From the NCBI GenBank assembly GCA_956465555.1, contig OY101123.1, positions 1,426,001 through 1,490,000 of the forward strand: a stretch of DNA of 64,000 nt, given 5' to 3'. Positions 40,018 to 47,138 of the stretch are shown here, in pieces (position 1 is the stretch's first letter; each line of letters starts with the position of its first letter). The stretch comes from Nitzschia sp. pyKryTriq1. Taxonomy: Eukaryota > Bacillariophyta > Bacillariophyceae > Bacillariales > Bacillariaceae. The notes below the pieces were generated by a model. That model was not told the DNA's origin, made no database searches, and worked only from the letters and a program-made list of their open reading frames with translations. A program made the translations under genes and the position numbers.

Positions 40018-41017
40018 TTCCTTGAGGATGTAGATCAATTTGAATCAGCTGAGAGCTACAACACGAACGGTGGAGAGAGGCGGCTAAAATTTTACAAGCG
40101 CTTGGCAAAGACTGCTCAGCAACGCGATGATGCCACTGTGCTGGGACAGACAGCGGGCCGCTTGGCGGAGTCGTTGGTTCTTGAACAAGTACACAATTCG
40201 ACGGAATCGATGGACAAGGAGTCTATTCAGCTATACAGAGCAATTGTATATCAGTGGTACATATCTCGTCAAGAGATCGCTGATATTTTTTTGTCAACAT
40301 TTGGTAGACTACAGTACAAGTACGCTGCGAATTTTTTATCAACTCCCGTCGCTCGGTCGTCGTCGCAAGTCGTCGTCTTCGTTCGTTCGAGCATACTCGC
40401 ATTACTGTTTGTATTGGGGAATGACCCAATGATATTTACGATTAGGGCTTATACGAGATGAGGCGCGCGAAAAAAATGCCAGTAGCAAGACACATACAGT
40501 ACTATACATAATTGAAAATACTTATAGCCGACGGACTGGATGGCTGGCGGCCGAGACGTCATCATCAATTTTCTTTTATTTGCTAGCTGGGTGCGTGCAT
40601 GCGAGTACCGGTACGTTCACACTACATACCGGTACCGGTACAGTACAGTACGCGACAATCCACGTACAGTATGTACAGTACCAGGTACAGTAGGGCGCCA
40701 CAGTCTACTGAAAAGACGGTGACGTTCGTACTGCGGACGGTCGGTGAGCGAAGAAAAGTCAACAAAACACAAAACCGGGCACACGAATGCGGGTCGCGAT
40801 AATCGTAGAATCTGGTACAAAATGTACGAGGGAACGAGAAACAGCAGCAACGTTGACCGCGAAAATAATCAGTGTTTTCGTCGAGGAGAGCTACGGTAGC
40901 AGCGTGGAGCACACTTTTGTCCATCATCGATCATCGCTCGAGCAAGAGCGTCTTGTGCATTTATTTACTCTATTACTTCCATTTTCACTTTTTTAATATT
41001 GTAAAGATACGCTGAAG
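40018..41017. other. Intergenic region with GTAC cluster
   Basis: 1.0 kb. The overlapping plus frame (to 40461) has a plausible helical segment (KFYKRLAKTAQQRDDATVLG) but no recognised family. GTAC palindromes at 40605-40700 (TACCGGTACCGGTACAGTAC). The last 300 bp are presumably the promoter and 5' UTR of the gene at 41018. Confidence 0.45.
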
Positions 41018-41659
41018 ATGATTGAAGACTCTGAAATTGCTACTGTGCCAATCAGCTCCGATAGGAGTATTGCGAGTGTTGCCAGTTTTTCCTCCACAGC
41101 AACAGTAAAGGACTCGCAAGAAATCCGGTCTCGACTTTTGCATCGACTTGGAATCCACGATGTCTCCGGAGCGTTAGCGCAGCCAATGTCTGCTGCCCAG
41201 CATCGCCGAGTACGCATTCTTCGTGGAATGGGCGTCGGCCATACCACCTTTGCATCGCCACCCGATGGTTCTGCGATGCGCTCGCCGCTAGGTGGCGTTA
41301 TCCCCTCGAAGGAGCCATTGAAAGACCAAGCAACCATTCCCACGTCAGTGGAGCAGAAGCAAACACGGATCGCCTTTGTTGACGAGGTCGACGTTGTTCC
41401 CATCCCGACGCGGCATGAATACAGCGACAGAATAAAGTCTCGAATTTGGAGCAACCGATATGAGCTACAGGAGAACGCAGAGCGCAACGCCGTTGAATTC
41501 GCTGCGGAGGGTTGGAACTGGCGAAATGTTACTGAGGACGAAGGCATGTATATTTGCTCAGCGAGTGGGGAGCTTGTGCATCCTGCCTGGGTCGGGGACC
41601 TTCCTCGAGTGGATGAAAACGCCAAAAGGCTAGAACGCGGAGGCGCGGTCCACTCCTAG
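41018..41659 (+). CDS. Uncharacterised family A member 1 (IPTRHEYS / SGELVHP protein)
   Basis: A 213-residue protein from ATG 41018. It has two blocks shared with the genes at 43278 and 46431. Block 1 (residues ~35-46) is [14 protein letters not shown]. Block 2 (117-~190) is [64 protein letters not shown]. The region between is disordered. R117-I-A-F followed by VDVV fits the RVxF-PhiPhi arrangement used to dock on protein phosphatase 1; that function is my inference. No signal peptide, membrane segment or catalytic motif is visible. I know block 2 only from uncharacterised diatom proteins. Intronless. Confidence 0.8.
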
Positions 41660-43277
41660 CAACGGCCAACATTATTATTTGTGTCACTTGTGCCATGTTT
41701 GAGTTTCGGGATCGGAAACGCTACTTGCCGATTGCTCGGGTTGTTTTGACGGAGGACTCTTATCCACACTTTATAATATCAATCACATTTTACAACGGAA
41801 GGGCCGAGACGTTGAGCGCTAGTTTGCCTCTAAACGGAGCCTGGATAGGGAGTAGTTACATCCTCTCGGTCTCTGAAGACGCGTCCACTGCTAATACACT
41901 ATTCGTACTGCAGCATTAGACAATTTATTGTAGTGTGCCACCGATTCACTGTGACAACGTGTGGGAGTAGGAAATAAGAAAGATGAATCATCTATCCTTA
42001 CGCGAGAATTTGCGAATGTCTCCTTGTAGTACTGGAGTAGCTTGTAGAGAACCATAAGGATAACGTTATTATGGGTCGCTATTACTTTTTAGCAGCAAAG
42101 TCCGTCGACTTGGGAAACAAGTTGGTTATAAAGCTGCTCGCTCTATCAATAGTTTAAGATCGTCTGACGACCCTTGACATGCCTCCTCTACTACTTCGTA
42201 GTAGAGATCTCACAACAACACAACAACAGTTTCAATTTCCTTCTCATCGTTCTTGATGATTTTCGAGATGAGCTATTTTAGTACGTACCGGTATGTACTC
42301 GTAGACCCAAGATTTCGTGCTGGGGAACTGTTCCCAGCGCTCTACTCGTATGATCTGGGTACCAGGTAGCAAAAACCAACCGCTTCAGGTACTGTAGACG
42401 ACTACCGCACAGTACCAGGTACTTACAGTCAGTACTGGTACTGTACCTGTATGTGGTTGTACACGAGTACCGCACCTGTACCACCGCCGTTACAGTGCAG
42501 GACATCCTCATGTTTGGTCAGAACTTGAGTACCAGGTACTGGTACAGTGCATACAAGTACCGAGCTCACAAACAGCAAACAGCTCGCAAGAACATCGACG
42601 CAACGAAGATGATTTGATATGCCTGACATATAAATGAGGACTGGCATCACCCAATCCACTGACGCACGTGTGTCAGCAGCTACATTTTACTTGGTAGACT
42701 GTACCGGTACTAGGTACCTGGTACCGATCGAGCGATAGAAGATGATGATTCGTACTGGTACAGTTAGTACCTGGTACCGTACCGGTACTGTACTGTACCG
42801 GTACGGTTCGTACCTGGTACAGTACAGTACTTGACGTGCATGTAGATTTGAGGAATTGATGCCGGTGCGGTGTGTCCCTCTATCACAACAACACAAGAGC
42901 ATTGCAGGGTATCCATGTAGGACACCGCATCGCCCAATGGCCAATGGGGGATGGGGGACGCCATCGGCGATCGGCGTCCATCGATCACACAAAGAAGTAC
43001 GAAGTACTTTACGTTTATGATCTAGGTCGATGATCCATCACTCACCGCTTACCTCATAATTTCAGCATCGCATAGCAAGCATATCCTTTCGATCCAAGCA
43101 AGGTTCAACTCCAAAGTCGAAGGAAGCAGTCAGGAGACACCACCATCCATCCAATAACAAATCATTTGATATCTCTCCAAGCATAGCTTCTTCAACCAAT
43201 TCTCGACTCCAATTTTCATTCCAACAGGTATATCACAGACAGTCAGTACAAGTCCTTGATGGAGAGATAATATTGCC
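41660..43277. other. 1.6-kb intergenic region with dense GTAC motifs
   Basis: No gene supported. The densest GTAC field of the window lies at 42280-42840 (GTACCAGGTACTGGTACAGTG, GTACCGTACCGGTACTGTAC and others). A 74-codon frame at 41695 is unconvincing. Confidence 0.55.
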
Positions 43278-43859
43278 ATGACTCGTCCTACATTCAAAGA
43301 GACAAACGAAGCAAGACAACGGTTATTGAATCGTTTGGGATATTTCAAAGATTCGCCTCTGCCAAGGGACGAAGTAAACAAAGGAGGGCAGTTTTCACCG
43401 CTCGAAAGAAGGTGCAGCACCGCATCGCTGGATAGTATTGGACGAACATTACTCCGTAGTGCCGTCCCCTTTCAACAAGAGCTTCATGACGACACGACCA
43501 CTTCAAAAGTTGAAAGCCTTTCGCCGAGATCGGCAAGAGTACAGTTCAATCACGTGGTTTCCGGAGTTGAAATCCCATCGAGACATCAGTACTCCAGCCG
43601 AATTAAGAGAACGATGTGGGCTGATAGAGCCGAGATCAGCGCGATGGTTGAACGAAACAGCATTGAATTTGAATCAGAGGGCTTTGATTGGGAAAATGTA
43701 GTTCTTGATCAAGATATGTATGTCAACGAAGTGAGTGGGGAGCTCGTTCATCCTTGTCACTACGATGTCAAAGGTCATCACGACATCGATGATGATGATC
43801 AAGATGGAGCGGGCGACCACTACTTCCCACCATTGCGACGCCATAACTCTGTTTCATGA
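43278..43859 (+). CDS. Uncharacterised family A member 2
   Basis: A 193-residue intronless protein from ATG 43278. Block 1 is EARQRLLNRLGYFKD near the N-terminus (~residues 11-25). Block 2 starts at R87-V-Q-F-NHVVSGV and continues IPSRHQYSSRIKRTMW, VERNSIEFESEGFDWENV, DQDMYVNEVSGELVHPCHY. An acidic Asp-rich tail follows. It is the most diverged of the three paralogs (IPSRHQYS for [13 protein letters not shown] for EGWDW), yet keeps every landmark including the RVxF-like start. Function unknown. Confidence 0.8.
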   Translation: MTRPTFKETNEARQRLLNRLGYFKDSPLPRDEVNKGGQFSPLERRCSTASLDSIGRTLLRSAVPFQQELHDDTTTSKVESLSPRSARVQFNHVVSGVEIPSRHQYSSRIKRTMWADRAEISAMVERNSIEFESEGFDWENVVLDQDMYVNEVSGELVHPCHYDVKGHHDIDDDDQDGAGDHYFPPLRRHNSVS

Positions 43860-44274
43860 ATGAATCGCTACCAACTTCAGTACTATACCAGAGTGCACCA
43901 ATTTTGATCAACACCCGCAGCATTACGCTCACTATTACGTCGTGTACAATGAACCCAAGCTTATCCATTCTAATCACACTCCAGAGTCTATCGTACCACA
44001 TACATAAGCTTCTAATCATCATACTTTACTGAACTCACGATTAGTGCTGGTTGCTAGTAGGAGTAGACGGCATTGTCGGACTATGCACTGTCTGTACTAT
44101 CATGCTCCCAACATCATAAAACTGTGAGCTGGCAACTTATCCTTGATCTCAGGTCATCTATTCGTAATCGTTGCATGAATCCGTTGTGTCAGATGATACA
44201 ATGAAAAAACTCAGCCAGATGTAACTCGCCTGCTGACAACTATGATTTGACCAATTGTATCTGCTAGAGAGTGA
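43860..44274. other. Intergenic region
   Basis: 415 bp between convergent stops; no gene, repeat or RNA recognised. Confidence 0.45.
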
Positions 44275-45432
44275 TTATCCCTCCTGACCAAAGCGATAAA
44301 TAAGGACTTTGAGACCACGTTCGATATCATCGCATGCAAAAGATGAAGGGTTATCCAATCGCTCCACGAGGGTCAAGACCGGAGCTTCCATCGCGACCAA
44401 ATCCTGAAGCCATCGAGAATCCAATTCAGGGGCGTTCAAGCATAGCATAACAAATCCTCCATCAACCAGAAGGTCTGGTAAACGACGGATGATCTTGCCG
44501 TAATCCTTCTTGGCCACAAAGCTGTTCTTTTGGAAACTCGGCGGGTCCGCTACAATGATATCATATGGACCGAGTTTACGTATCTTGCCCCACGACTTGA
44601 AAATATCATGAGCCAGAAAACGAGCACCGCCTTTCCTCAGTTCATTCAATTCATGGTTGCGCTGTCCGGTCTTCAGCACTCCGTTTACCATGTCCATGTT
44701 GACGACAGAGTCTGCACCACCACAAAGTGCCGCCACGGAAAACCCACAAGTGTACGAAAACAAGTTCAAGATGTTCTTATCTTTTGCTCGTTGTCGGACC
44801 CAATCGCGACCATTGGCCATATCAAGAAATATCCCATGATTCTTGGCTCGGTCCAATCGGACCAAGAATTTCATGCCGTTCTCGGACACGACATGGGGAT
44901 CGGGGATGGCTCCAGCCAACACAGAAGTCGTTGCATTTGTAGGAGATCGAAATTGGTAGACAAAATTCAACGGGTCGGAAGTCGTATCTGATTCCAGACC
45001 CTGAGATGAAATGGCTTGTTGGATTGTTTGAAGATCCCCAGAGTCTATCTCTTGGTTGTAGCTTGTCAGTAACCAGACGGGGGGAAACCAATCCATGGTT
45101 ATATGTTCGCAGTCGGGAAACAATCCACCACGCCCATGAAATACACGTAATGCTTCTGATGGACCTAACTGCGACCTTTGGACATGCTGCAGTAATGGAA
45201 GCAAAGGGTGGTTGTCATTCGGAGCGAATGCGTCGCCTTCACTTTGACAATTTTCAACGGAAGAGTCTTCGTTGAGCGAAGCCCATGTTACCGCAACGAG
45301 GTTTCGTGAAGGACTTGGAAATAGCAAAACCGAGAACGACTCGATGGGCTGTATAACCCCCCACAGTAAGATTGTCAAAGCAAGCCACCAACGGCATTCT
45401 GAAGACCTACTCCAATCACATCCTTTCTTCAT
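44275..45432 (-). CDS. SAM-dependent methyltransferase, RlmI/RlmK-like, organelle-targeted
   Basis: A 385-residue protein from ATG 45432. Residues ~15-33 form a hydrophobic signal-like helix (WWLALTILLWGVIQPIES) followed by FSVLLFPSPSRN: a Phe right after a signal-type site, suggesting the diatom plastid presequence. The catalytic half contains KFLVRLDRAKNHGIFLDMAN, motif I ILNLFSYTCGFSVAALCGGA, VVNMDMVNGVLKTG, and motif IV DIIVADPPSFQKNSF, the signature of the YccW/RlmI-type class I methyltransferases that modify rRNA cytosine or guanine (m5C/m2G). A PUA domain, usual in RlmI, is not evident. rRNA methylation in the plastid is inferred. It sits on the opposite strand between family A members 2 and 3 and is probably unrelated to them. 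Confidence 0.82.
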   Translation of the reverse strand: MKKGCDWSRSSECRWWLALTILLWGVIQPIESFSVLLFPSPSRNLVAVTWASLNEDSSVENCQSEGDAFAPNDNHPLLPLLQHVQRSQLGPSEALRVFHGRGGLFPDCEHITMDWFPPVWLLTSYNQEIDSGDLQTIQQAISSQGLESDTTSDPLNFVYQFRSPTNATTSVLAGAIPDPHVVSENGMKFLVRLDRAKNHGIFLDMANGRDWVRQRAKDKNILNLFSYTCGFSVAALCGGADSVVNMDMVNGVLKTGQRNHELNELRKGGARFLAHDIFKSWGKIRKLGPYDIIVADPPSFQKNSFVAKKDYGKIIRRLPDLLVDGGFVMLCLNAPELDSRWLQDLVAMEAPVLTLVERLDNPSSFACDDIERGLKVLIYRFGQEG

Positions 45433-46430
45433 CGCGGCCGCTTTCTCCAGAAATTATCTTCGTGATGTCTTCCCGCTTTCATCCGCCCAACATTGCGGAT
45501 CGGTCCCTGGTGTGAATGAACCCTCTGTGGAATAGTCTGATCTAAACGATGATGATGATGATGATGATGATGTAAACGCAGATGATTATCTTTGGATGTG
45601 TAGGTACCTACTAGTAGAGACTCTACCGGTAGTAGTACGAGTAGATGTGAGAGATGGATGGACGTGAAAGATGATTCAGAATTGTGATTATTTGTGATGC
45701 GAAAGATACCAGGTACCGGTACGAACGCCGCCCATGACGCACGCGCGCTGATGATGACGAGGCAGGGAGAACGAACCGGATGATGACGCGACACAGAAAG
45801 CGAACGCGTGTGGTGTGTCTGTGTTCGCCGGCGTTCGTTTATCTATTTAAGCCATTCTTGATGAGCATGACACCAATGTTCCTTGTTTTTATCAAAAACA
45901 ATGCCAACGGAAATGAATCGCTGTCAAAGAGCAAGAGTCAAGTTTTCACTCTGGCTGTTTGTTTTGCAAGGAATGGAATCTCATTCGCCAGCTTCTCCCA
46001 AAGACACATGATTTTATTTATAAAAGAGGTGAGAGGTCTTTATTTTAAAAACGTAACGACAACAACGCTTGGAACGTTTGCCCCGCCCCCGTCCACTTTG
46101 TACCGGTAGATCTGTCAGTAGACTTGTGCAGTACCTGTACCAGTGTTTTATGGTTCTCCATCTGGTCCACTCGTACGAACTCACCGTATTGTATGTACAC
46201 GGCGAAAGGCCCTTCGCTACCGGTACGTGTACTCTACCGATATGCCGAGAAGACAGCGCAGCCTTTTGCGTTTTCCCGGCATTGGCGCGAAAGCACGGCG
46301 AGTGCGATGAAAAGACATCACAAAAAAGGAAACCTCGTCTTCTTTCCTGTTCTGGTTCTCTATCGTCCCGGTCTTCGCACTTCCGATTGCTTTCCAAAGA
46401 ACCAAACTATCTTTACCATACTCTGAAACC
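45433..46430. other. 1.0-kb divergent intergenic region
   Basis: Has a (GAT)n run at about 45549-45573, CTACTAGTAGAG/ACCGGTAG motifs near 45608-45640, and GTACC motifs near 45710 and 46100-46145. No gene supported. Confidence 0.5.
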
Positions 46431-47138
46431 ATGGGAAAAGTTGTAGCATCACCGAGAAGTCAACCTCTCCCTCATGATCATGCTATCCGGTCCAAGCTGC
46501 TGAACAGTTTGGGCATTTACAAGACTCTTCCAGTCCGAAACGCTGGCGAGCGAAGAAAACACGTGATCCGTAGTGGCATCACGGCAGTAGCGACCTCGCA
46601 GTCATCGATGCACCATCGAAGAAATCATTCAGAGCCTTTTCGGTTGCCGCTGAACGATAATTACGACTCCTCTCTACCTACTACTTCCAACCAGCCTCTG
46701 GCCTTTTCGTCATCCTCCACTTCTGTTTGGGCGACATCGATATCACCACCTTCCTCCACCTCGTCGATTGAACCATCAAATGAACGAAGCATCCAATTCG
46801 AAAATGAAGTCACGGTAATGCCGATACCAACTCGCCACGAGTACTCCAATCGCATCAAGAAGTTTCTCTGGAGCGGATCAGAAGAAATCTCCGAGAATGT
46901 GGAACGAAATCGCGCTGAATTCGCCGCTGAAGGCTGGGACTGGCACAGCGTTCTTGAGGATGATGATATGTATGTCGATGCGCAATCCGGGGAACTCGTG
47001 CACCCTGTGTGGTTTGAAGAAGACTTCGACGACGAGGAGGAGGATGACGCAATGTTGTTAGATACCATGGCAGAGGATCTCCCCCCACTTATTCGAAGTC
47101 CCTCCTTTGCAACGAATCTCCAAGAGCTGAACGAATAA
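46431..47138 (+). CDS. Uncharacterised family A member 3
   Basis: A 235-residue intronless protein from ATG 46431. Block 1 is AIRSKLLNSLGIYKT (~residues 18-32). A Ser-rich linker with RRNHSEPF follows. Block 2 begins R119-S-I-Q-F-ENEVTVM and continues [54 protein letters not shown]. The C-terminus is very acidic (FDDEEEDDAM) and ends with a short Ser/Pro motif. The FENEVTVMP stretch closely resembles known F-x-x-x-V-x-V PP1 docking contexts. Same strand and similar size as the members at 41018 and 43278. Confidence 0.82.
   Translation: MGKVVASPRSQPLPHDHAIRSKLLNSLGIYKTLPVRNAGERRKHVIRSGITAVATSQSSMHHRRNHSEPFRLPLNDNYDSSLPTTSNQPLAFSSSSTSVWATSISPPSSTSSIEPSNERSIQFENEVTVMPIPTRHEYSNRIKKFLWSGSEEISENVERNRAEFAAEGWDWHSVLEDDDMYVDAQSGELVHPVWFEEDFDDEEEDDAMLLDTMAEDLPPLIRSPSFATNLQELNE

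Follow-up and report, generated by a model that had tools for sequence, protein, structure and literature searches.

The window analysed here is a stretch of 64,000 nucleotides of the diatom Nitzschia sp. pyKryTriq1 (contig OY101123.1, positions 1,426,001 to 1,490,000 of the forward strand), in which three related genes of the same strand lie between positions 41,018 and 47,138. As judged from their sequences, the products of these genes are probably adaptor proteins, disordered for the most part, which dock to protein phosphatase 1 (PP1) by means of a string of the RVxF-PhiPhi-R-W type, and their family most likely consists of lineage-specific PP1 targeting subunits. An initial annotation had proposed PP1 docking and phosphatase targeting by analogy with PPP1R15. 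Conservation of the motif, the spacing of a downstream Trp and profile matches in the PDB speak for the docking part of this proposal, while the analogy with PPP1R15 does not extend beyond the Trp.

Family members in the genome

The window genes do not stand alone but belong to a larger family. The genome searched comprised 40.65 Mb in 20 contigs. With the third window protein (P0003) as query, tblastn detected a close family of 11 loci at E<1e-4, namely the three window genes and eight further loci with E-values of 9.3e-23 to 3.2e-5. The paralogy of the window genes, already noted in the initial annotation, is far above chance level (E 2.5e-27 for the first protein, P0001, and 3.1e-23 for the second, P0002). 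More divergent queries uncovered a wider class with the same string and, in many members, a C-terminal RGLE block. The union of these tblastn searches, made by hand, comprised at least 83 distinct loci. Silicon-transporter loci, which mark the genome as that of a diatom, number eight.

All 83 loci were read, 66 of them in tabulated form (11 close, 55 wider) and 17 later. Of the tabulated loci, 18 had been picked with a pattern requiring Phe or Trp at the anchor position; the set of 17 consists of the two loci that failed this pattern and 15 that were fetched later. L012, L014 and L015 (tblastn E 0.089 to 4.84) were dropped for lack of the domain, L013 (E 0.52) was kept as a member of the wider family, and several wider-family rows with E-values above 1 were accepted on account of a readable string and readable neighbouring blocks. 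L074, which is near-identical to L073, and L083, which has an in-frame stop, were excluded from all profiles. Relatives outside the genome were sought in viral contigs with the P0003 query (41 pattern matches) and in prokaryote genomes with the alignment A1 as query (4 pattern matches), and none of these matches was confirmed.

The conserved string

The string is a nearly gapless [V/I]-x-[F/W]-x3-[V/I]-x-[V/I] that is closed by a Trp 24 residues past the Phe; positions are counted below from this anchor Phe (F). The RVxF-PhiPhi signature of the initial annotation is real and longer than had been described, the Trp at the spacing of PPP1R15A having gone unremarked. The anchor residue is Phe in 64 and Trp in two of the 66 tabulated loci, 18 of which were selected for these residues, and by eye it is Phe or Trp in 16 of the 17 loci read later, with [VI]x[FW] in 14 (exceptions L098, L106 and L110). 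Position F-2 is occupied by Val or Ile in 59 and by Val, Ile or Leu in 64 of the tabulated loci, and the other hydrophobic positions vary more freely than the anchor. Thus, the [VI] and F positions, whose conservation the initial annotation had made decisive, hold throughout the family of this genome: the Phe is kept in 11 of 11 close members, Phe or Trp in 66 of 66 loci, and the [VI] position family-wide, with weaker conservation in the close family itself.

The Trp is found at F+24 in all 11 close members and in 58 of the 66 tabulated loci; it stands at +25 in five, at +27 in one and at +23 in one, and in L083 its place is taken by a stop. Lys or Arg precedes the motif at F-3 or F-4 in every close member and in 46 of 55 wider loci (57/66). 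Past the anchor, Lys or Arg is present at F+20 in 11/11 close members (30/58 overall), and Arg at F+18 in 8/11 close members. The invariant columns of the close-family domain alignment are F, V(+4), I(+9), S(+16), W(+24), N, E, F and E. Where the Trp stands at +24 (58 rows), there is a preference for Val or Ile at +4 and +6, Tyr, Met, Leu, Phe or Ile occupies +15, and +16 is mostly Ser or Thr; Glu is found at +19 in 43 of these rows and Glu or Asp at +29 in 55, while +33 is mostly Ile or Met.

Ser at F-1 in a basic context (Lys or Arg at F-3 or F-4) occurs in 27 of 55 wider loci and in two of the 11 close members, neither of which lies in the window, and the three window proteins carry Ala or Gln at this position.

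The background level of these patterns was assessed in 257 stop-to-stop open reading frames (ORFs) of the window and their shuffles, with patterns that were written after the family had been seen. The RVxF pattern alone matched 64 times compared with 57.0 in shuffles, which is chance level, so that RVxF by itself is uninformative in the window. With Val or Ile at +4 and Val, Ile or Gly at +6 added, four matches were obtained compared with 1.18, and with Trp at +24 added, five compared with 0.87. The full string was matched by the window trio only, that is three times compared with 0.017 in shuffles.

Profile searches against the PDB

The PDB was searched with five profiles. The docking profile, which comprised 19 columns (F-6 to F+12) from 64 loci, was run against 177,635 sequences, and matches were listed at E<=10. 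Exactly two entries were matched, PPP1R15A (4xpn, E 0.21) and KNL1/CASC5 (6czo, E 0.36), both of them PP1 partners. Entry 6czo is a PP1 complex with the PP1-binding segment of KNL1, and 4xpn is a complex with PP1 according to PMC8500838. When the docking profile was built from the 11 close loci, PPP1R15A ranked first and third of three matches (E 0.081 and 2.2) with ribosomal L1 in between. A control profile of the 33 columns following F+12 gave five PDB matches, none of them a PP1 partner. The weight of the docking-profile result is in the identity of the matches and not in single E-values. In a single-chain sequence search of the PDB the three window proteins themselves gave chance-level matches only.

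PP1 catalytic subunits and proposed mode of docking

Three genes for PP1-type catalytic subunits are present in the genome, and one of them closely resembles human PP1alpha, with 235 identities in 276 aligned residues. Nine residues of the RVxF pocket are kept in all three genes, as are Y78, D71, N271, I133 and Y134; contact residues for RVxF, PhiPhi and the Trp are among those conserved.

For the window proteins we infer binding to PP1, its regulation and a choice of substrates in the following manner. The [VI]-x-F residues would fill the RVxF pocket of the diatom catalytic subunit and the VxV stretch would add a beta-strand to PP1, while the Lys or Arg at F+18 or F+20 could reach Asp71 and the Trp at F+24 could pack on Ile133 and Tyr134. 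The amphipathic helix after the Trp may lie at or near the PP1 hydrophobic groove; together with the tail of EG[WF][DN]W and SGELVHP and with the N-terminal helix, it may select substrates or localise the enzyme. The same string would serve the roughly 80 proteins of the wider family, in many of them ahead of another C-terminal module, the RGLE helical hairpin. Phosphorylation between V and F weakens RVxF docking. In about half of the wider class, with its Ser between V and F in basic context, a kinase could switch docking off. As this Ser is found in the wider class and not in the window trio, docking may be open to such a switch in the wider class and constitutive for the window genes.

Several observations weigh against PP1 docking. 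Position F-2 is Val or Ile in only 7 of the 11 close members (Leu in two, Ala in one, Thr in one). Val or Ile at +4 combined with Val, Ile, Ala or Gly at +6 is found in only 41 of 66 loci, P0002 itself carries Gly at F+6, and Lys or Arg at F+20 is not general across the wider family. The regular expression [KR].?[VI][^P][FW] matches 7/11 close members and 50/66 loci in all, and a stricter RVxF definition matches only 1/11 and 38/66. The matches to PP1 partners in the PDB are individually weak (E 0.08-0.36) and span only about F-6 to F+9, and the limits of the docking stretch were chosen with docking already in view. A full-domain profile of the 11 close members (A2) matched no PP1 partner among the PDB sequences, and in that of 64 members KNL1 ranked second and PPP1R15A 13th of 14 among unrelated matches. 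On the side of the enzyme, Y70 is replaced by Thr and S129 by Gly in two of the three PP1 genes. Finally, the RVxF stretch of the P0003 model has a predicted local distance difference test score (pLDDT) of 85-89 despite its lack of secondary structure, so that packing of this stretch on the helices is possible.

Predicted structures and alternative explanations

The AlphaFold2 model of P0003 has a mean pLDDT of 59 and a predicted template modelling score (pTM) of 0.26, with helices at residues 15-26 (the N-terminal block), 140-146 and 150-166 and neither helix nor strand in the RVxF-VxV stretch. For L069, a member of the wider class, the mean pLDDT is 78.8 and the pTM 0.53; its VSF lies in a loop (block pLDDT 70), behind which come two helices (60-66 and 70-86) and a helical hairpin predicted with confidence (104-131/136-180, block pLDDT 87-98). 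The RVxF segment, whose burial in a folded domain would have spoken against docking according to the initial annotation, lies outside the helices and strands predicted in both proteins, as judged from AlphaFold2 secondary structure only. Structural searches gave one meaningless match for P0003 with Foldseek and no match with VIA-align, in which one of two chains was aligned; the L069 model gave 64 Foldseek matches in the PDB, none at E<=0.001, and among the 50 listed the best had E 0.44 and the top ten were ribosome entries.

The high pLDDT of residues 121-170 of P0003 (block means 81-89) would also fit a self-contained mini-domain, with V, F, V, V, I, Y and W as a core packed on the following helices and with a partner other than PP1. 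The fixed distance from Phe to Trp in 58 of 66 loci would be expected of such a fold as well. We regard it as unlikely: no strand is predicted for V-x-F-x3-VxV, the pTM of P0003 is low, and in L069 the VSF block is modelled with lower confidence than the hairpin. Moreover, a hydrophobic core would not require an anchor restricted to Phe or Trp or basic residues ahead of it, and the docking stretch by itself matches PP1-bound peptides in the PDB.

The basic residues ahead of a hydrophobic-x-hydrophobic pair, and the Ser at F-1 in 27 of the 55 wider loci, could alternatively mark a docking or target site of kinases (a MAP-kinase D-motif or a PKA/Aurora-type KRxS site) in place of a phosphatase dock. 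This is improbable, since Ser or Thr is missing at F-1 in 9 of 11 close members and a D-motif needs neither an anchor of Phe or Trp only, nor Val or Ile at +4 and +6, nor a Trp at +24.

Least probable of all is that the proteins are true diatom orthologs of PPP1R15 (GADD34/CReP) that dephosphorylate eIF2alpha together with actin: the distance from RVxF to Trp and the position of the Arg or Lys are equal to those in PPP1R15A, which is also the best PDB match of the close-family docking profile, but no Arg-rich helix follows the Trp, the sequence there differing in charge and spacing by eye, the F of ERNxxEF lies 17 residues past the Trp in P0001 compared with 10 for F592 in PPP1R15A, and eleven close members would exceed the need for one conserved eIF2alpha subunit. 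The actin- and eIF2alpha-binding helix of PPP1R15A includes F592 and R595 (PMC8500838). No match to PP1c_bdg (PF10488) was obtained in Pfam scans of the three proteins and six segments (E<=10) or of 30 wider-family proteins (E<=1); a search of the whole genome with PF10488 was likewise without match, but so were 14 control genomes. Because the actin/eIF2alpha half is absent and the PF10488 model finds no match, the window family is not PPP1R15. The analogy drawn in the initial annotation accordingly holds for the string from RVxF to Trp and fails for the helix behind it, which is different and lacks the residues contacting actin and eIF2. Docking to PP1 by lineage-specific proteins is the reading that we retain as the most likely.

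Organization of the three genes

All three genes are uninterrupted ORFs from ATG to stop on the forward strand, at the positions that had been annotated, and the motifs R117-IAF-120, R87-VQF-90 and R119-SIQF-123 agree with the earlier reading, as does the presence of the N-terminal block and of SGELVHP in each protein. The first gene (41018..41659) encodes P0001 of 213 residues, with the N-terminal shared block at residues 36-46 (41123..41155), the string RIAF...W (R117, F120, W144) at 41366..41449, and the post-Trp helix block (ERNxxEF..EGWNW) with SGELVHP (residues 183-189) at 41450..41584. The second (43278..43859) encodes P0002 of 193 residues, with the N-terminal block ARQRLLNRLGY at residues 12-22 (43311..43343), the string RVQF...W (R87, F90, W114) at 43536..43619, and the post-Trp helix block with SGELVHP (residues 153-159) at 43620..43754. 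The third (46431..47138) encodes P0003 of 235 residues. Its N-terminal block IRSKLLNSLGI, residues 19-29 (46485..46517), overlaps the first predicted helix; the string RSIQF...W (R119, F123, W147) is located at 46785..46871, with residues 119-134 modelled without helix or strand ahead of the helix 140-146, and the last predicted helix and SGELVHP (residues 186-192) at 46872..47006. The N-terminal block was compared by eye with the MyPhoNE and SILK patterns, and both assignments were rejected. A Pfam scan of the three proteins gave nothing convincing.

Between the second and third paralog a gene for an S-adenosylmethionine-dependent methyltransferase is located on the reverse strand (44275-45453; PF10672, E 1.4e-92). 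Dense short repeats of the GTACC/GGTAC type (GTACCGGTACC and variants) were seen by eye between genes at 42260-42860 and 40600-40700. A recent tandem triplication was considered; the domain tree has no well-supported branch, leaves the three window genes unresolved and does not show them as each other's closest relatives.

Further observations were made on family members elsewhere in the genome. L073 and L074 (C7:2171956, minus strand, and 2174434, plus strand) belong to the wider family, are nearly identical and lie inverted to each other at a distance of about 2.3 kb; beside them is L096 (C7:2177110), a third member that has diverged further. Another near-identical pair of the wider family, L114 and L115 (C1:4622728 and C3:3480056), is located on two contigs, each copy roughly 120-130 kb from a contig end, which suggests a segmental duplication. 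L083 (C5:2721829), in which the in-frame stop stands where other members have the conserved Trp, is possibly a decayed copy. In the close-family member L009 (C4:1274450) the ORF stops at EFASEG, and the remainder of the block, WNWRNCLEDER, resumes further downstream without a change of frame, as if an intron interrupted the conserved block. L011 (C11, ORF 1-2916) has the string embedded in a long low-complexity protein with a sub-threshold match to a 2-oxoglutarate (2OG)-Fe(II) oxygenase (PF13640, E 3.2e-5, 25.3 bits compared with a cut-off of 27). Many wider-family ORFs, L069 among them, start with MAPL or MPP and several end with AA or AAA; these termini may be additional short signals under conservation.

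Significance

Searches of the open-access literature found no paper joining diatoms with PPP1R15, or RVxF with diatoms and protein phosphatase 1; the papers found for RVxF with diatoms and for Phaeodactylum with PP1 regulatory subunits were irrelevant by title and start of abstract, and broader searches gave no paper on a diatom PP1 regulator by title among the matches listed. A description of such a family was thus not found in the open-access literature searched, and the proteins may be an undescribed set that steers the phosphatase.

In animals the specificity of PP1 derives from many adaptors of mostly unrelated ancestry, of which Phactr, neurabin/spinophilin, PNUTS and PPP1R15 have the string in common. 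Should the docking be real, some 80 homologous proteins of a single alga that carry the string would offer an unusually clean natural experiment on its function, its important positions and the diversification of substrate choice, and many diatom genes that were assigned to no Pfam family in the scans made here would gain a testable role. A broader proposition, which we hold to be evenly balanced, is that a lineage-specific superfamily of PP1 regulatory subunits, about 80 of them per genome, arose in the diatoms. In these, one string would be combined with varied modules (EGWDW/SGELVHP tail, RGLE helical hairpin, 2OG-oxygenase-like domain), and PP1 specificity would have been diversified by gene-family expansion and not by unrelated adaptors, with phospho-switchable (VSF) and constitutive (window) classes.

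Comparison with known PP1 partners

KNL1/CASC5 is a kinetochore protein of unrelated architecture. Its RRVSF-ADT-IKV (6czo) aligns to the wider-family profile without gaps and shares with it the Ser between V and F, but the match stops short of the Trp part. PPP1R15A (GADD34; PDB 4xpn, 7nzm) has its own KVRF-SEK-VTV, with Arg at F+20 and Trp at F+24; unlike in the diatom proteins, which are without PF10488 match, an Arg-rich helix follows that contacts actin and eIF2alpha. In the PDB chains the distance from Phe to Trp is 24 in PPP1R15A, 19 in PPP1R15B and 20 in Phactr1.

The string is common to Phactr1, neurabin/spinophilin, PNUTS and PPP1R15A/B (PMC12185105). For Phactr1, PMC7599070 gives the RVxF residues as LIRF 519-522 and PhiPhi as 527-530, with Arg 536 in contact with PP1 D71 and Trp 542 seated on I133 and a neighbouring Tyr; changing F522 weakens PP1 binding about 650-fold and changing W542 about 40-fold. 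The anchor, PhiPhi and Trp features of these proteins, Phactr1-4 included, are present in the diatom family by sequence, and the Lys or Arg at F+20 or F+18 is a candidate for the Arg motif. RVxF, V-x-V, a basic residue and Trp succeed each other in the same order and at similar distances in the two sets, which are also alike in a predicted helix after the Trp and in a largely disordered protein context. In contrast, similarity to the diatom family was detected in the string alone, the human chains compared are without the diatom Tyr-Ser (F+15/16) and the IPxR, EGWDW/SGELVHP and RGLE blocks, and the diatom set is a family of about 80 members in one genome.

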